Source: Deltaproteobacteria bacterium
GTDB taxonomy: Bacteria > Desulfobacterota > Deferrimicrobia > Deferrimicrobiales > Deferrimicrobiaceae
Assembly: GCA_021824125.1 (NCBI GenBank)
Contig: JAKALO010000010.1
Location: forward strand, 1 to 38,446
Reading direction: 5' to 3'
Length of the DNA: 38,446 nucleotides
Made by a program: the position numbers and the translations under genes. This document shows positions 3,266 to 34,003 of this stretch, in pieces. The notes beneath the pieces were generated by a model. That model searched no databases, was not told the origin of the DNA, and was given only the letters and a program-made list of their open reading frames with translations. Each line of letters opens with the position of its first letter. Position 1 is the first letter of the stretch.

Positions 3266-3639
3266 GGGGCCTCCCACCAGCACGGCGTCCCGTAATCGGA
3301 CGCCGCGTTGTCGATTGATATGGACCGCACGGTGACGTAGCAATTCGGCCGGATGCCGTAGGCCGCGAGTAACGAAAGGTCGAACGTGCTGACCGGTACT
3401 CCCACGTTATCCACTCCCGCGAGGGCCGCCCGGAGCGTGTTGTCGTTCCATGCCGCGTTATCGGACACGTGGACCTCGTACCAACTGATCAACCGGAGAT
3501 CCATCGGGGAATTGTCGTTCCACTTCGCATCCTGTATCCACGTGAGCATCGTCTTCTCGACGGGGGCGGGAGGTCCCGAGGACGACCCGCACGACATCGC
3601 GAGGAGGCAAAGAAGGGGGATCCACCATTTCCTCATCAT
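3262..3639 (-). CDS. Putative lipoprotein with Fn3-like domain
   Basis: A 125-aa protein beginning MMRKWWIPLLCLLAMSC. The hydrophobic core ends in AMSC followed by GSSSG, a usable lipobox with Cys17 as the lipidation site, although Met at -2 is not the commonest residue. After a short linker comes one Fn3-like beta domain. Overlaps both neighbours by ATGA. A small outer-membrane lipoprotein beside the endolysin recalls outer-membrane spanins, but those are usually shorter and proline-rich; a surface or superinfection role is equally possible. Confidence 0.65.
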   Translation of the reverse strand: MMRKWWIPLLCLLAMSCGSSSGPPAPVEKTMLTWIQDAKWNDNSPMDLRLISWYEVHVSDNAAWNDNTLRAALAGVDNVGVPVSTFDLSLLAAYGIRPNCYVTVRSISIDNAASDYGTPCWWEAP

Positions 3640-4136
3640 AGGAACGTCTTCAGAGCGTCATAGCATCGGTTCACGGTGCCCTTGCGGCATTCCTTCGGCG
3701 TCTTCACGTTGTGCTTCTCGATCCGGAGCGCGACGTACACGGTCGCCTCGAGGTACGGCCGCGCCATGTTAAACAAACCGCTCTCCCCGTAGGCGCTCCC
3801 GAGGTTTGCGAACAGGTCCGTCAGGTGGCTGACGATCTTAGGGACCTCCGGGAGCATGACCTCCACGTCGTCCAACCCGAGGTTGACCGCGCAGTCGAAC
3901 ACCACGCAGTCCAGCGGGTACGAGAGATGGTCGCACCCGGCGGGGATCCAGTAGTCCGATAGATACATCCCCGCGATTTCGTCGTCGGAGAGGTCGCGGG
4001 CGATGATCCGGTGGCGCAGGTACGGGTACTGCCGCGCGGAGATCCCCTTCCAGGTCGGCCCTCCGGAATCTACGGTGTACCCACCCTCCTTGGCGAGGGT
4101 GAAAGGCAACGCCTTCATGCGGAAGTTCTCGCGCAT
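3636..4136 (-). CDS. Endolysin, GH108-type N-acetylmuramidase
   Basis: A 166-aa lysozyme-like protein. The N-terminus contains the GH108 signature KEGGYTVDSGGPTWKG, with Glu17 the expected catalytic acid, followed by the typical second half with a DCAVNLG segment. It would cleave the MurNAc-GlcNAc backbone of peptidoglycan at the end of infection. There is no signal peptide or SAR-type span, so it needs a holin for export, consistent with the holin candidates downstream. ATG has GGAGGA seven bases upstream. It is the first gene after the UUCG-loop terminator at 4157-4176. Family length is about 160-180 aa, so it appears complete. Confidence 0.9.
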   Translation of the reverse strand: MRENFRMKALPFTLAKEGGYTVDSGGPTWKGISARQYPYLRHRIIARDLSDDEIAGMYLSDYWIPAGCDHLSYPLDCVVFDCAVNLGLDDVEVMLPEVPKIVSHLTDLFANLGSAYGESGLFNMARPYLEATVYVALRIEKHNVKTPKECRKGTVNRCYDALKTFL

Positions 4137-29072: not shown

Positions 29073-29479
29073 TACTGCCTCTCTCTGGTTCTTCGATTAC
29101 GAATCACGTCAAGCTCTCGAAGAAACTGGTCAACGCTTGTCGCTACAATTCGTTCAAGCCCACATCTTCGGTAAATTTCTCCCCATTCAGCCTGCTCAGG
29201 TTCAAGGTCATTCCCCGCGAGTTTACATTCCACCATCACCACGCAGTTGGCGTCCGGCACGTAGACCGTCAGGTCCCACGTCCCCGCGGTGTGCAGGCGC
29301 ATCACACCCGCGTTCTTGAGCCCCCGGGCCAGCCCCGTGTTATTGCGCTCGCAGCGAAGGTGGAGCCGCCGGCAAGCATCCCTGATTGGTTCTTGAACTT
29401 CACTCGTTTCCCAGTTCTTCTGGGCGCCGGATCCATGCCGAACCTGCCGCGCCCAGGGGAGCTGCGTGAAGCGGGTCAC
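29072..29479 (-). CDS. VRR-NUC domain nuclease with replaced C-terminus
   Basis: 135 aa, GTG start overlapping the previous stop (GTGA). The nuclease core reads LKNAGVMRLHTAGTWDLTVYVPDANCVVMVECKLAGNDLEPEQAEWGEIY: Asp in TWDL, the E-x-K pair in VECKL, and Gln in EQAEW give the PD-(D/E)XK site (about residues 64-105). Such phage enzymes act as structure-specific nucleases in recombination or replication. Base composition switches near position 29235: upstream codons are GC-rich, while the last ~50 codons resemble the following HNH gene. The C-terminus therefore seems to have come with the HNH insertion. Confidence 0.88.
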   Translation of the reverse strand: MTRFTQLPWARQVRHGSGAQKNWETSEVQEPIRDACRRLHLRCERNNTGLARGLKNAGVMRLHTAGTWDLTVYVPDANCVVMVECKLAGNDLEPEQAEWGEIYRRCGLERIVATSVDQFLRELDVIRNRRTRERQ

Positions 29480-30111
29480 TTTGCCGAGGCCTCCGCTGGT
29501 GAATCCCCCGCGGCTTCCGCTGCCGGCGCCTTGGGCTCCAACCCAAGCACCTCCCGATATTTCACGGCGTACTCTCCGAACTCCGCCGCCTCGAGGACCT
29601 CAAGGATCCGCAGGAACGCGGCTCCATGCCTCTCCGCGATCGCACCCCAACAGTGGCGGTGCACGGCGATCTGGCCGATCATCGCCCACTCCGCCTCGGT
29701 GAACGTCTTGATCGGCTGCTTGTAGATCAGTGCAAGGAAGAAGTCGTGATTGTCGACGTAGTTTTTGGCGCCCCTCAGGTACGCGCCGCTCAGGTACGCG
29801 CCCCTCAGGTACGCGCCGCCGAGGTCCGCGCCCCTCAGGTACGCGCCCCTCAGGTCCGCGCCCCTCAGGTACGCGCCCCTCAGGTACGCGCCCGTCAGGT
29901 ACGCGCCCCTCAGGTCCGCGCCGCCGAGGTCCGCGCCCGTCAGGTCCGCGCCCCTCAGGTACGCGCCGCCGAGGTACGCGCCCGTCAGGTACGCGCCCCT
30001 CAGGTCCGCGCCGCTTTTCACGGCGGCCTCGAGGGTGAGCTTCAGGCTCTCCGTCTCCAGGCTGAACAGGATGTTCCCGCTGAAGCGGTGCTTGATCTCG
30101 AAGAGTTTCAC
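29476..30111 (-). CDS. Pentapeptide-repeat protein
   Basis: 211 aa, GTG start overlapping the previous stop. N-terminal 34 residues are ordinary. Residues 35-114 are 16 uninterrupted A-(D/Y)-L-(R/T/G/S)-G pentapeptides, about four turns of a right-handed quadrilateral beta helix. A C-terminal helical domain of about 75 residues (KTFTEAEWAMIGQIAVHRHCW...) and an Ala/Glu/Pro tail follow. Related helices mimic DNA and can protect or inhibit gyrase, but many have no known role. The absence of bulky residues in the i position and the Tyr/Asp alternation are unusual. It lies between nuclease and replication genes. Confidence 0.85.
   Translation of the reverse strand: MKLFEIKHRFSGNILFSLETESLKLTLEAAVKSGADLRGAYLTGAYLGGAYLRGADLTGADLGGADLRGAYLTGAYLRGAYLRGADLRGAYLRGADLGGAYLRGAYLSGAYLRGAKNYVDNHDFFLALIYKQPIKTFTEAEWAMIGQIAVHRHCWGAIAERHGAAFLRILEVLEAAEFGEYAVKYREVLGLEPKAPAAEAAGDSPAEASAK
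29770..30009. repeat. 16 tandem 15-bp units coding pentapeptides
   Basis: Near-identical 15-bp units (plus strand: GCGCCCCTCAGGTAC and close variants) fill 240 bp without interruption. Differences are mainly TAC/TCC (Tyr/Asp) and CCT/CCG/CGT (Arg/Gly/Thr) at two positions. Such uniformity at DNA level implies recent expansion or gene conversion and predicts copy-number variation. Confidence 0.95.
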
Positions 30112-30362
30112 CGCGCGCCTCCCGCTCTCCTCACCGGCGGCGCGTTCCCTGCCTCCACGCCCAGCGGCAGCGACGGCTGCTCAACCTCGATGTTCGCGAT
30201 GAAGGCGCCCTTCTGCCCGTCGGTGAGCTCGTCGACGGCGGCCTTCGTGGCGGTCCCGTCGATCTCGATGTGGAACTCTCCCCGCGCGTACTGCGTGGGG
30301 CCGTCCTTGGTCTGCCGGAGCCTGTAGGACACGTTGCGGATGAACATCTTCACGTTCGCCAT
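30108..30362 (-). CDS. Hypothetical protein, 84 aa
   Basis: ATG at 30362 has AAGGAGG seven bases upstream; longer frames lack a site. Begins MANVKMFIRNVSYRLRQTKDGPTQYARGEFHIEIDG, a beta-hairpin-rich pattern, then a helix (KAAVDELTDGQKGAFIANIEV). Ends in a flexible Pro/Gly tail. It is the first gene after the repeat field that follows the RepA-like helicase. No family recognised. Confidence 0.7.
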   Translation of the reverse strand: MANVKMFIRNVSYRLRQTKDGPTQYARGEFHIEIDGTATKAAVDELTDGQKGAFIANIEVEQPSLPLGVEAGNAPPVRRAGGAR

Positions 30363-30452
30363 CTGAAGCCTCCTTTTCGTCTGGGGGTGGGGTGCCTTTT
30401 TACTGCCGTCCACTTCGTCCGTCTGGTGATCAAAAAACGCTCCTCTGGCGAA

Positions 30453-30718
30453 TACCCCTCACGGGGTTACCCCTCACAACGAGGGAGGGGGAACCCCCCC
30501 CCGTAGGGGGGGGGTTGTGGTGAGGGGTAATCGAAGTAAGTGAAATGAAAGGGAAATATTTCCCCTCACAGGTGTTTTTTGAGGGGTAATCGTGAGGGGA
30601 AATCAATGTTGTTGATTTTATTGAGGATTTAATACCCCTCACCGAATACCCCTCAAACGTGAGGGGTATTGAGGGGTAATCGAAATGAGGGGTATTTTCC
30701 GCGTGGAAATGAGGGGTC
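30453..30718. repeat. Iteron-like field, 12 copies of TGAGGGGTA in both orientations; candidate replication origin
   Basis: Core TGAGGGGTA or its complement starts at 30453, 30468, 30521, 30560, 30580, 30593, 30633, 30647, 30660, 30670, 30686 and 30710. Nine copies are exact, two read TGAGGGGAA and one TGAGGGGTC. Five copies read as TACCCCTCA (or TTCCCCTCA) on the plus strand. An AT-rich patch with an inverted repeat AATCAA/TTGATT (about 30601-30632) lies inside. The field begins in the stop codon of the RepA-like helicase gene. Repeats next to a helicase gene suggest the phage origin. No gene is credible in these 354 bp. Confidence 0.75.
30492..30516. other. Hairpin of nine C and nine G
   Basis: AA plus nine C, loop GTA, nine G plus TT: an 11-bp perfect stem with a three-base loop inside the repeat field. 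The G-run could alternatively form a quadruplex. No T-tract follows, so a terminator is less likely than an origin or pausing structure. Confidence 0.8.
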
Positions 30719-31859
30719 ATTCAGCACCTCCAGAGGTGTCTTCCACCAGGGAGAAAATCCGGCCGTTGCCGCGACCGATGACGGGCCTCGATGTGACCAT
30801 GTTGACGAGGGGGGAAGAGGCGAACGCGACGGCGCGCTCGGCGGTCGCCTGGGAGACGTTCTTCAGCTCCTTGATCTGGGAATAGAGCTGCTTCCCCATC
30901 ATCTCGCCGCCGAAAGATTCGATGATCCTGGCGATCTCCACCGGGGGGATGTTCGACCGCAGCAGCTTGGGGGCTTTCGTCCCAGGGACGAGAACAACGC
31001 CCTCCCGGGTGAGCTCCATAGGGGCCGGGTCCTCGAAGTTCCGGAGGGTGAAGTCGAGATGGAATTTCTCGTCGGAGTCCTCTTTCGTGCGGGAGAGCAT
31101 CATGGCGCCGTCGACAAACCCGTCCAGTCCCGCGCCGCGCAGCTCGGAGATCCCCGAGTTGACACCGATCGACTTGCGCACGTGGTGAACCAGGAGGACG
31201 CACTTCCCTGCTTCCTTCACACGGTCGAGGACGTCCTGGACCCGCCGGGCATCGGCGTGGGAGTTCTCGTCACCCTCGGCGATGAACCGGTAGATGGGGT
31301 CAAGGATCACAACCTCGAAGGGATCGACCAAGCGCATGAGGGTGCGCTCGCCGGCGTCGGTGTCGATCTTGAGCTTTCCGTTGGTGGAGAGGTATTCCAT
31401 GCGCTGGAGGCCGTCTTCTTCGACTTCCGTGAAGGCGATCAGCTTCTGGAATCGCTCCCGGAGGCGCACCTCGCGGCCTTCCGCGGAGAGTAGCAGGACC
31501 TTGAAGGACCGGGTGGCGTTGAAGCCGAGCCAGGGCCCACCGGCGGCCGCGCACAGGCCCATCGACTTGATCGTCCAGCTCTTCATCGCCTTCGGTGGTC
31601 CGCCCAGAACGGTGACCTCCCCCATGGCCAAGAGGCCCTCGAAGACTTCTTCCGGAGATGTGAGGGTCTCGTCCTGTAGGAGATCCAGGACGGGCCGTGG
31701 GCGCATATTCTCGAGGACGACGAGCCTTGCCGCCTCCGCTGGCGTAAGTTGAGGGGCGCTCCAGCGGGTTTTACCTTTTTCGATCCGGGGGCCCGGCATC
31801 CGGCGGCCGACGTCCTCGACCACAGACCCAAGATCATCGTCGTCGGGTGTGTGCGGCAT
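30717..31859 (-). CDS. RepA-like replicative helicase / AAA_25 ATPase
   Basis: 380 aa from the ATG at 31859, which overlaps the previous stop (TAATG); a GTG three codons earlier is possible. RecA-like core: Walker A GGPPKAMKSW at 86-95, Walker B FEVVILDPIY near 165, sensor-like LLVHHVRKS near 205, and an Arg-rich end of the core. The C-terminal 90 residues form a winged-helix-like region (KQLYSQIKELKNVSQATAERAVAFA). This is the RSF1010 RepA/AAA_25 type of hexameric helicase often encoded by phages. Its substrate origin is probably the repeat field beginning at its stop codon. Confidence 0.85.
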   Translation of the reverse strand: MPHTPDDDDLGSVVEDVGRRMPGPRIEKGKTRWSAPQLTPAEAARLVVLENMRPRPVLDLLQDETLTSPEEVFEGLLAMGEVTVLGGPPKAMKSWTIKSMGLCAAAGGPWLGFNATRSFKVLLLSAEGREVRLRERFQKLIAFTEVEEDGLQRMEYLSTNGKLKIDTDAGERTLMRLVDPFEVVILDPIYRFIAEGDENSHADARRVQDVLDRVKEAGKCVLLVHHVRKSIGVNSGISELRGAGLDGFVDGAMMLSRTKEDSDEKFHLDFTLRNFEDPAPMELTREGVVLVPGTKAPKLLRSNIPPVEIARIIESFGGEMMGKQLYSQIKELKNVSQATAERAVAFASSPLVNMVTSRPVIGRGNGRIFSLVEDTSGGAE

Positions 31860-32044
31860 TACAGGCACAGATATTCCGTCAATTCGATGAGTCCCCTCTC
31901 GTATTCATCAGGCGGAAGATCCACAAGCAGCCGCTTCCCGCGCTCGTAGTCGATCCACGAACGGGAGCCGCGGGGCAGACGGGCCAGCACGAAAAGGGCG
32001 GCGAAAGAGACGATCCTCTTTGTGGAGAGCACATCGATCGCCAT
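31859..32044 (-). CDS. Small hypothetical protein, 61 aa
   Basis: ATG at 32044 shares a base with the previous stop (TGATG), with GAGGG nine bases upstream; an ATG three codons earlier is possible. Moderately basic N-terminal half with a short hydrophobic stretch (IVSFAALFVLARLP), and an acidic helical end (PPDEYERGLIELTEYLCL). Coupled to the RepA-like gene, perhaps a helicase accessory or loader; no family recognised. Confidence 0.6.
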   Translation of the reverse strand: MAIDVLSTKRIVSFAALFVLARLPRGSRSWIDYERGKRLLVDLPPDEYERGLIELTEYLCL

Positions 32045-32322
32045 CAGATCCATCCCTCTATCGCCAGCCGCAGCCGGTCCGCCTCAAGCGACCGGTGCCG
32101 TAGATCCTGCGTCGCCTTGGTCCACTCCGTTCCCCGGGTCGTCTGGCAGGTGAACGCCTTCTTCACGATCACGCCGAAGCGCAGCAGCTCGCGATCGATC
32201 TCACGCGCGCCCGGGCAGTTCCAGAGCACTACCTTCGGATCGTTGAAGAGGTACTGCGTCCCAACGGGGATCCGCAGCTCCGGCGCTGGGGCGGGGGATC
32301 CGCAGCATTTACATGGAGGCAT
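32044..32322 (-). CDS. Small Cys-containing hypothetical protein, 92 aa
   Basis: ATG at 32322 preferred: a G-rich site precedes it and the product begins MPPCKCCGSPAPAPELRIP, a knuckle-like Cys cluster. A later Cys at WNCPG is followed by a basic helical region (REIDRELLRFGVIVKKAF, then LRHRSLEADRLRLAIEGWI). Overlaps the previous gene by 14 bases. Possibly a small DNA-binding replication accessory; not recognised. Confidence 0.6.
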   Translation of the reverse strand: MPPCKCCGSPAPAPELRIPVGTQYLFNDPKVVLWNCPGAREIDRELLRFGVIVKKAFTCQTTRGTEWTKATQDLRHRSLEADRLRLAIEGWI

Positions 32323-32824
32323 TTCGCGCCCCCCGTTTCTCATCTCGGCACTCCTGGCAGGACACCGAACCGTAGGATTTTGACTCCCCACAGGCGTAGG
32401 TATCTCCCACGCGACCGGCGGAAGCCCTCTTCTTCGCCGCCTCCGCCTTGGCGCGCGCCACTCCCTGCTTGCAGTTCGTGCACGGGATCTCCCGACGCTG
32501 ATCTATCAGGGTGTTCGCGATCGGACGCATCGCCGCTTTGCGGACAGCCAGACATACGCCGTCGTCTATGCACGGGTTGATCTCGATGCGGGGCCGAGGG
32601 ACCGTGGGCGGAGATTGCGCTACAGGGGGGGGGGCTTCCGCGGGCTTACTGTCTTTTGCCCAAGGGTCACGGCCGAGGAGGCCGGCGATCTGCACCTTCC
32701 GTTTACTGTGCGGCGTGACGCGGAGGCGGTGCCACGAACTGATGTTAAATATCGATACGCCTGCTTCTTTCAGGCGGCGGTACTCGTCGTTGGAAAAGAT
32801 GCCCGGACCGGGAAGTCGGCTCAC
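32309..32824 (-). CDS. Zn-binding hypothetical protein with winged-helix-like N-terminus
   Basis: 171 aa. The N-terminal 50 residues look like a small HTH (GIFSNDEYRRLKEAGVSIFNISSWHRLRV), then a Pro-rich linker (PAEAPPPVAQSPPTVPRP) and a cysteine-rich end with CTNC, YACGES and CQEC, enough for one or two zinc knuckles. Overlaps the CII-like gene by four bases. Likely a DNA-binding replication or regulatory protein of the early minus operon. Confidence 0.65.
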   Translation of the reverse strand: MSRLPGPGIFSNDEYRRLKEAGVSIFNISSWHRLRVTPHSKRKVQIAGLLGRDPWAKDSKPAEAPPPVAQSPPTVPRPRIEINPCIDDGVCLAVRKAAMRPIANTLIDQRREIPCTNCKQGVARAKAEAAKKRASAGRVGDTYACGESKSYGSVSCQECRDEKRGARNASM

Positions 32825-33180
32825 TTCCGCCTCAGCTCCATCAAGGTCTTCGCAATCTCTGTGACCTGTTTTTCGAGCCGCTGGATCGTCAGCTCCCGCT
32901 GCGCCTGCTTCGGCACCAGGTCGCGGACGGCGAAATACTTCGCGATCATCTTTCCGCCGGTGGCGTTGCGGATGAGGTCCAGCTCGTTCGCGAAGAGGTT
33001 CGCCGCCCCGGAGAGCTTCATGGACAGCAGGTTGATCGACATGCCGAGCGCCGCTGCGATCGCCTTCGGCGGCTTGCCGCAGTTGTAGACGTCCCAGGCC
33101 GCGGCCTCCGTCGGGGTTTCGAAGTCCCGCGGATCGGGCTCGGTCTTTTCTGCGAAATTCAGGGATATCTGATCCGACAT
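32821..33180 (-). CDS. CII-like phage regulatory protein
   Basis: 119 aa, ATG with GAGG upstream. Centre contains YNCGKPPKAIAAALGMSINLLSMKLSGAANLFANELDLIRNATGGKMIAKYFAVRDL: an HTH followed by the ATGG segment typical of the phage regulatory CII family (about residues 32-88). Ends in a coiled-coil helix (AQRELTIQRLEKQVTEIAKTLMEL), suitable for oligomerisation. It stands directly after the Cro-like gene, as cII does in lambda, and probably controls the lysogeny decision. Confidence 0.78.
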   Translation of the reverse strand: MSDQISLNFAEKTEPDPRDFETPTEAAAWDVYNCGKPPKAIAAALGMSINLLSMKLSGAANLFANELDLIRNATGGKMIAKYFAVRDLVPKQAQRELTIQRLEKQVTEIAKTLMELRRK

Positions 33181-33210
33181 GGCAGCCCTCTTTAACGCGG
33201 CTGAAAAGAA

Positions 33211-33224
33211 TTAACGGTCGTTAA
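33211..33224. promoter_or_regulatory. Palindrome TTAACGGTCGTTAA upstream of the CII-like gene
   Basis: Six-base arms TTAACG/CGTTAA around GT, with a further TTTAACG half-site at 33191-33197, in the 84-bp gap between the Cro-like and CII-like genes. Different from the CI/Cro operator. A candidate binding site for the CII-like protein or another early regulator. Confidence 0.5.
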
Positions 33225-33232
33225 ATAGAACC

Positions 33233-33256
33233 TCGGATAAAAAAAGGCTATGACAG
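33233..33256 (-). terminator. Weak terminator-like sequence between Cro-like and CII-like genes
   Basis: After the Cro-like stop the minus strand reads GGCCGCTGTCATAGCC then TTTTTTT: only a three-base-pair stem before a seven-T tract. It occupies the place of lambda tR1, which would make it a site for antitermination, but the stem is weak. Confidence 0.3.
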
Positions 33257-33264
33257 CGGCCCAT

Positions 33265-33477
33265 TCAATCGTTGCTCGCCTTGCGGTACTTGGGGTGCTT
33301 GAGTTCCAGGAAGGTCACGGCCCCGTTGGTCGCCTCCTCGATCTTCGCGGCCAGGTCATCGGACGCCACCTTCAAGCCGCGCTCGATCTCGGAAATGAAG
33401 CTCTGGGCCGTCCCGACCTGCTCCGCGAAAGCCCCCTGGGTCACCTTCTCGCGCTCTCGCCATTCATCCAGACGCAT
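33265..33477 (-). CDS. Cro-like XRE-family repressor
   Basis: 70 aa from the ATG at 33477 with AGGAGGTGAT seven bases upstream. A compact XRE helix-turn-helix: WREREKVTQGAFAEQVGTAQSFISEIERGLK (about residues 5-36), followed by AAKIEEATNGAVTFLEL. It is expressed divergently from the CI-like gene and shares its operators (33503-33519 and 33536-33552), the arrangement of lambda cro. Expected to bind the same palindromes and favour lytic growth. Confidence 0.88.
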   Translation of the reverse strand: MRLDEWREREKVTQGAFAEQVGTAQSFISEIERGLKVASDDLAAKIEEATNGAVTFLELKHPKYRKASND

Positions 33478-33498
33478 GCAATCACCTCCTGCTCGAAT

Positions 33499-33527
33499 CA
33501 AATATCGCAAGGCGCGATAGATGTCAA
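33499..33527 (-). promoter_or_regulatory. PR-like promoter of the minus-strand Cro operon
   Basis: On the minus strand TTGACA (33522-33527), 17-bp spacer, TATTTG (33499-33504). The operator 33503-33519 fills the spacer and enters the -10, so binding blocks polymerase. Transcription would start near 33491, only about 14 bases before the Cro-like ATG. Confidence 0.8.
33503..33519. promoter_or_regulatory. Operator O1, TATCGCAAGGCGCGATA
   Basis: A perfect 17-bp palindrome with six-base arms TATCGC/GCGATA and a five-base centre, inside the PR-like promoter. The same sequence pattern recurs at 33536, 34460 and 34493. Confidence 0.88.
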
Positions 33528-33535
33528 GGGGAAAT

Positions 33536-33552
33536 TATCGTGATTTGCGATT
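33536..33552. promoter_or_regulatory. Operator O2, TATCGTGATTTGCGATT
   Basis: Same consensus with two arm changes, centred 33 bp from O1 and upstream of the -35 of the Cro promoter. Probably mediates cooperative repression and, being 17 bp before the repressor start codon, autoregulation. A degenerate half-site (TATCGC at 33562) follows. Confidence 0.75.
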
Positions 33553-33568
33553 TGACGGGGATATCGCT

Positions 33569-34003
33569 ATGAGCTATGTAACTTATATGCCTGAGAATAT
33601 TGGAGATATCATTCGTAAAGCCCGCGAGGGAAGAGATCTGACACAGGGGGAGTTGGCGGAAAAGATCAATGTCGTACAGTCCCTCATCTCAGAACTGGAA
33701 ACCGGGAAAAAAGATCTTACGGTTGACACGATCCGAGGTCTCCACCGGGAGCTGGGGATCCCCCTTCCGGCGCTACTTGGCATTGAGAGAACTACCCAGC
33801 CGCCCGCGGCCTCCCTTGTTGCGGAGCAAAGTGCCGGATACGGCAAGGGTCCACCGTTTTCTTTTCGTGTGATCGTGAAAGACGACGATGAAAACCTATG
33901 GATATATGATTCCGACAAGGGTGAATGGGATCGGAAGCGGATTCGCCCGCCCATAAAAGGCTTGCCAGGAAGGCGGTGGTACGATAAAAAGGAACCAGCA
34001 TGA
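33569..34003 (+). CDS. CI-like prophage repressor without a cleavable peptidase domain
   Basis: 144 aa from the ATG at 33569 (GGGG seven bases upstream); an in-frame ATG earlier lies in the operators. XRE HTH at about residues 8-60 (NIGDIIRKAREGRDLTQGELAEKINVVQSLISELETGKKDLTV), then a short C-terminal part (FSFRVIVKDDDENLWIYDSDKGEWDRKRIRPPIKG). No S24 Ser-Lys peptidase or Ala-Gly cleavage site is present, so RecA-driven self-cleavage is not expected. Divergent from the Cro-like gene, and it overlaps the next gene by ATGA. Confidence 0.85.
   Translation: MSYVTYMPENIGDIIRKAREGRDLTQGELAEKINVVQSLISELETGKKDLTVDTIRGLHRELGIPLPALLGIERTTQPPAASLVAEQSAGYGKGPPFSFRVIVKDDDENLWIYDSDKGEWDRKRIRPPIKGLPGRRWYDKKEPA

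Follow-up and report, generated by a model that had tools for sequence, protein, structure and literature searches.

The repeat field at 30453-30718 of the window (the whole stretch of 38,446 nt that was analysed) is very probably a start site of phage replication, origin activity being inferred. In our reading it serves a temperate phage as replication origin, with the RepA-like helicase whose gene ends at the edge of the field as initiator; judged from sequence, we give this a probability of about 0.77, with both the origin activity and the binding of the helicase inferred. Directly observed are the array itself, its conservation, a rule of position that extends across helicases and the co-variation of the box with the helicase C-terminal domain. 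A previous sequence-only reading had called the field a candidate origin, and the comparisons described here support this strongly as far as an inferred activity can be supported. The window is one contig of a 2.6-Mb assembly of 246 contigs and reads as a temperate siphophage, with an integrase, a CI-like regulator, a Sak4-like annealing protein and an SSB, as well as terminase, portal, head protease, major head and tape-measure proteins.

Allowing one mismatch at most, 12 matches to TGAGGGGTA were found, all within 30453-30718 and none elsewhere in the 38.4-kb window. This number was reached by 0 of 100 shuffles. The twelve copies in both orientations described before are confirmed. Nine copies are exact, two read TGAGGGGAA and one reads TGAGGGGTC, giving a consensus of TGAGGGG(T/A)(A/C) with the order --+-++--++++ along the plus strand. 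The copy most distant from the helicase stop (TGAGGGGTA, 30453-30461, minus strand) and its neighbour, which is the outer arm of a palindrome (TGAGGGGTA, 30468-30476, minus), are followed by TGAGGGGTA at 30521-30529 (plus), TGAGGGGAA at 30560-30568 (minus), TGAGGGGTA at 30580-30588 (plus), TGAGGGGAA at 30593-30601 (plus) and then by TGAGGGGTA at 30633-30641 (minus), 30647-30655 (minus), 30660-30668 (plus), 30670-30678 (plus) and 30686-30694 (plus), the copies starting at 30647 and 30660 forming an inverted pair. The last box, TGAGGGGTC at 30710-30718 (plus), had been said to contain the helicase stop codon (30717-30719). It does overlap the codon, but shares only two of its three bases. The uneven spacing (10-51 bp), the mixed orientation and the lack of a Rep_3 match among the window proteins scanned agree with the earlier remark that the arrangement differs from simple plasmid iterons; the uniform direct repeats beside a Rep_3 gene which characterise a Rep_3-type plasmid iteron origin are not what the field shows. 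Outside the field, the whole 2.6-Mb assembly holds three exact box copies and no box pair within 30 bp. The 7-mer TGAGGGG/CCCCTCA occurs a further nine times at 29771-29996, but these copies are produced by the codon repeat of a pentapeptide-repeat gene and are unrelated to the field. This gene (29476-30111) adjoins the field. At the DNA level it matches pentapeptide genes of Caulobacter phages (about 80%), and its spurious TGAGGGG matches lie at multiples of 15 bp.

The AT-rich patch and the long C9/G9 hairpin that had been noticed within the field were both found. The hairpin (30492-30516) has the sequence AACCCCCCCCC-GTA-GGGGGGGGGTT, that is, a perfect 11-bp stem with arms of 11 nt and a loop of 3 nt, and shows a CCCTACGGG apex on the helicase strand. 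It stands at the centre of a box-hairpin-box palindrome (30467-30530), the plan of which recurs in the unrelated phage locus L203 (see below). Folded as single-stranded DNA, 30464-30533 yields -24 kcal/mol (z -5.4) and the L203 counterpart a z of -9.3. From the GC content of 20-bp bins, an AT-rich spacer was located at 30530-30562 and the most AT-rich patch (25-35% GC), a candidate unwinding element, at 30600-30636. That the hairpin might be a DnaG or ssi-like priming site is a guess, an idea only. GC skew at third codon positions, which had been suggested as a check, shifts in the expected direction beside the array; since this change is merely local, it is not decisive.

A single close relative of the window helicase was found in the related-locus search, on the IMG/VR contig 3300037692_000441 (L009), where the helicase is 87% identical over 369 residues. 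L009 keeps 11 of the 12 boxes in the same order and orientation together with an identical C9-TAC-G9 hairpin, and AATAAAATCAA of the AT-rich patch at 30600-30636 is retained as well. The two boxes most distant from the helicase stop are conserved; those at 30521 and 30633 read TGAGGGGAA in L009 and the one at 30593 reads TGAGGGGTA. Counted over all boxes, 82 of 84 positions in the 7-bp cores are unchanged, compared with 124 of 159 in the spacers (Fisher p 1.9e-5). Both core differences fall into the copy at the helicase stop codon, which is degenerate in L009 and thus not essential. Absence of the repeats from relatives that keep the helicase had been set as a refuting observation, and for L009 this is not the case. 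Among the other proteins, the CII-like upA is 88% and the small downstream 101-aa protein 95% identical between the two phages; for the upstream Zn proteins upB, upC and upD the values are 46%, 68% and 48%.

The gene at the edge of the field (30717-31868, minus strand) codes for a RecA-fold helicase of 383 aa with a match to Pfam AAA_25 (1e-28). Its motifs GGPPKAMKS (Walker A), EGR and HH are conserved, as demanded of the catalytic residues in the AAA_25/RepA family. The best solved structure for the family profile is RSF1010 RepA (1g8y, 1.4e-17), therefore the name RepA-like, which the protein had been given before, is right. The proposed box reader is its C-terminal domain (approximately residues 305-383; 30717-30956, minus strand). 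A winged-helix/HTH nature of this domain is inferred from relatives, of which several match winged-helix families at their C-termini (HTH_IclR 3.6e-6, HTH_12 2e-4). The C-terminus of the window protein had no Pfam match, and AF2 models of the helicase and its C-terminus were poor (pLDDT 41 and 55), without a PDB fold match.

Which protein reads the boxes was left undecided before, with the RepA-like protein and the Zn proteins as possibilities. The former is favoured by co-variation. Across 37 loci with clear boxes, the boxes tend to be more alike where the last 85 residues of the helicase are more alike (Mantel r 0.28, p 0.0002), and this persists when the motor core is taken into account (partial Mantel r 0.17, p 0.0004); the reverse test, core given C-terminus, yields r 0.02 (p 0.31). 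The result was stable after pruning the closest members or using bare 7-mers. At r 0.13-0.36 the Mantel correlations are modest, and the partial test is the only control for phylogeny, an incomplete one. As an example, AGTTTCC (GGAAACT) boxes were found with all four helicases ending in an LGISKGQVSKI-like helix-turn-helix, and two close variants of this type have AGTTTAC and AGTTGAC boxes. Together, the change of the box with the C-terminal domain suggests that the enzyme itself reads the site, binding being inferred from the sequences compared. The Zn proteins, judged by the same means, are unlikely readers, since they are only 46-68% identical while the boxes are unchanged. As in the earlier impression that a gene for a separate initiator is not obvious, no RepC-like iteron binder was matched among the neighbouring proteins scanned and none is common to the array loci. 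Eight window proteins were compared with these loci, and beyond L009 relatives were found for the helicase alone; for the Zn proteins, upA and the 101-aa protein none were found at the other array loci examined.

We extended the comparison to the 3' ends of RepA-type helicases reached by protein similarity in phages, plasmids and prophages of the same phylum. Many of these are followed by a different short box, repeated in both orientations from the stop codon or shortly past it onwards, for instance GGCTGGAAA in Roseobacter phage CRP-406, GTTATTTTC in two Streptococcus phages, and TGGCACAA, CGGGACAT and ACCATCG in loci L222, L230 and L014. In the first set, 13 of 31 loci scored above every control window taken from that locus. 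A second set comprised 53 loci, was collected by profile after the hypothesis had been formed and included a few prophages of the first set; here 23 did so, compared with 2.2 expected. In the pooled, non-redundant set a 7-mer occurs at least five times at 30 of 84 helicase 3' ends, but at 0 of 76 helicase 5' ends and at 1 of 199 3' ends of other ORFs from the same loci (p 5e-17). By this exact test a clear array is present in only about a third to half of the helicases; this share is a lower bound, since exact 7-mer counting misses degenerate boxes. The comparative set comes mostly from one phylum. In the actinophages Sour and EmiRose no array was seen 3' of the helicase. As to the refuting observation named above, in distant relatives the array is often kept, but its box sequence differs.

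A second line of evidence does not depend on protein similarity. IMG/VR was scanned for three CCCCTCA boxes and the search was then refined with mixed orientation, which returned, among others, L119/L203. Here, seven TGAGGGG boxes (TGAGGGGTT) begin 10 nt past the stop of a large ORF with an AAA_25-type motor, and two of them are an inverted pair around a C/G hairpin. This phage was picked by its DNA pattern alone; its helicase and that of the window are about 28% identical. Hairpins of the form CCCT-(TAC)1-5-GGG are enriched in the 300 bp 3' of RepA-type helicase genes, 8-fold in the first set (p 2e-6) and 5-fold in the second (p 1e-5). A hairpin of C-run, TA-rich loop and G-run (CCCCTATAGGGG type) recurs at this place, often between inverted boxes, and was seen for example in L014, L016, L203, L222, L230, L298, L302 and L303. 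L225 shows, from about +190 to +270 past the helicase stop, a near-perfect palindrome of about 54 nt with a CCCCTTTAGGGG apex and no repeated 7-mer array; by analogy, this is possibly an origin consisting of a stem-loop only, as in pRN1.

If the helicase is the initiator, several of its subunits would bind the TGAGGGGTA boxes through their putative C-terminal winged-helix/HTH domains, and one or two hexamers may form on the crowded inverted and direct boxes. Opening would then occur in the AT-rich patches that separate boxes (30600-30636 and 30530-30562), and extrusion of the palindrome around the C9/G9 stem could provide a structure for loading or priming. The motor domain would then unwind the DNA, in the 5'-3' direction if it behaves like a RepA-type hexameric helicase. 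Binding, hexamer formation, melting, the role of the hairpin and unwinding are all inferred. Priming would be left to another enzyme, probably one of the host, because none of the window proteins scanned was recognisable as a primase.

The boxes could also be an origin that is read by a separate phage protein, such as upA (32821-33180), the 101-aa protein (30108-30413) or one of the Zn proteins. RSF1010, with RepC for its iterons, is an established precedent, and upA and the 101-aa protein are well conserved in L009 (88% and 95%). However, relatives of these proteins were found at none of the other array loci examined, box sequence follows the helicase C-terminus in the 37-locus comparison, and upB, upC and upD have diverged while the boxes stayed fixed, so that we regard a separate reader as unlikely, though not negligible. 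A transcription operator or regulatory array, bound by a phage repressor or by an autoregulating helicase and controlling the downstream genes, seems distinctly improbable. The field does lie between two genes of one leftward operon and a CI-like regulator is encoded at 33521-34003, but no sigma-70-like promoter was found in 29900-33600 and 12 sites in 266 bp, interrupted by AT-rich gaps and a hairpin, would be a high number for an operator. Moreover, the position rule, 3' of helicase genes and 0/76 at their 5' ends, fits replication modules.

TGAGGGG hairpin repeats are dispersed in some genomes (Sinomonas, Patescibacteria), and one might think of a REP- or MITE-like mobile repeat that came to lie here by chance. 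We consider this very improbable, as there is a single cluster in this genome without dispersed copies, it is kept in place in the diverged relative, and other helicases have equivalent arrays of different sequence. Hardly any weight remains for the hairpin as an intrinsic terminator and the boxes as a decayed repeat: a G/C hairpin past a gene end would be in the right place, but no T-run follows it on either strand, it is absent from the results of the terminator scan, and the box positions are more conserved than the spacers.

An origin bound by its own helicase, as inferred here, can be compared with several known systems. RSF1010 (IncQ), whose RepA is the nearest solved structure to the motor domain of the window helicase (1g8y), combines iterons with an AT-rich origin. 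Its RepA has no C-terminal reader domain and does not read the iterons, which are longer direct repeats and are read by RepC; no counterpart to the separate RepC-type initiator of such a RepA-RepC-RepB' replicon was seen among the neighbouring window proteins scanned. Lambda O is a winged-helix initiator that reads GAGGG-type boxes, and ori-lambda is located inside its own gene. Lambda O and RK2 TrfA share with our case such boxes and a winged helix, the latter being inferred for the window helicase, but they are not helicases and need a loader, and we saw no homology between them and the window protein. The TrfA iteron TGACA(G/C)(A/T)TGAGGGGC contains TGAGGGG (PMC9499019). ORF904 of pRN1 has a C-terminal winged helix, and the origin, situated past the 3' end of the ORF904 gene, contains a stem-loop that is essential (PMC4234260), but ORF904 is an SF3 helicase fused to a prim-pol and the origin is one large stem-loop without iterons, unlike the window. 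The closest parallel in design is offered by SaPI Rep and SCCmec Cch2. Both of these helicases bind to short repeats located immediately 3' of the genes that encode them (PMC7581432); according to that article, which cites Ubeda 2007, SaPI Rep does so by its C-terminal domain. As there, the window has iteron-like repeats directly 3' of the helicase gene, no separate initiator recognised among the proteins scanned, and inverted repeats, which can be present in those systems too. The motors differ: SaPI Rep and Cch2 are of the D5/SF3 type, a fold the window helicase does not show, having a RecA-fold RepA-type (SF4-like) AAA_25 motor (1g8y match). Repeat binding has been shown for SaPI Rep and Cch2 and is inferred for the window helicase. 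By analogy, it would work like SaPI Rep without being a member of its family.

For the majority of temperate phages and prophages, it is not known where replication starts. We think it rather likely that phage helicases of the RepA type (SF4-like) make up a large class of initiators which work on their own, each with an exchangeable C-terminal winged-helix/HTH reader, a matching box array just past the stop codon and often a C-run/TA/G-run hairpin within inverted boxes; origin specificity would be readable from the C-terminal domain and perhaps swappable with it. If this rule is true, origin and reader become predictable from sequence for many phages with such a helicase, and the natural pairs in which reader and box have changed together are data from which a code of protein-DNA recognition could be studied. 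The rule would also mean that the separate iteron binder and the helicase of a plasmid were merged into one protein, in parallel to the SF3 helicases of SaPI and SCCmec. No published description of such origins was found in the open full-text literature searched, subscription journals and preprints being outside the scope of the search.

TGAGGGG boxes were met in other contexts, too. A scan of 84,980 genomes with a three-site pattern returned mostly dispersed hairpin repeats and is therefore uninformative on origins; L160-L198 (Sinomonas, Patescibacteria, Chlamydiae) are REP-like TGAGGGGT hairpin repeats of this kind, with many loci in Sinomonas. Arrays near Rep_3, DUF3987-like, VirE-like and HTH_36/O-like initiators were considered as relatives of the window field and are treated as convergent use of GAGGG boxes, their initiator classes having been named by reading the sequences and not by profile. 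Such an array lies near a DUF3987-like gene in L027, and in L150 (2640-2730), L153 (732-804) and L159 (3342-3444) the boxes are inside HTH_36/lambda-O-like initiator genes, as in ori-lambda. Three related contigs (L155, 1331-1817; L156, 6852-7338; L157, 788-1274) carry eleven TGAGGGGT boxes over 490 bp, close to a divergent terminase and to a gene (774 aa) that reads as VirE/SF3-like. In L158 (IMGVR_UViG_3300013105_000019, 3339-3787), ten TGAGGGGT boxes with an AT-rich core are placed between a ParA gene and what reads as an initiator gene of the Rep_3 type, which looks like a phage-plasmid origin with the same box core as the RK2 TrfA iterons.
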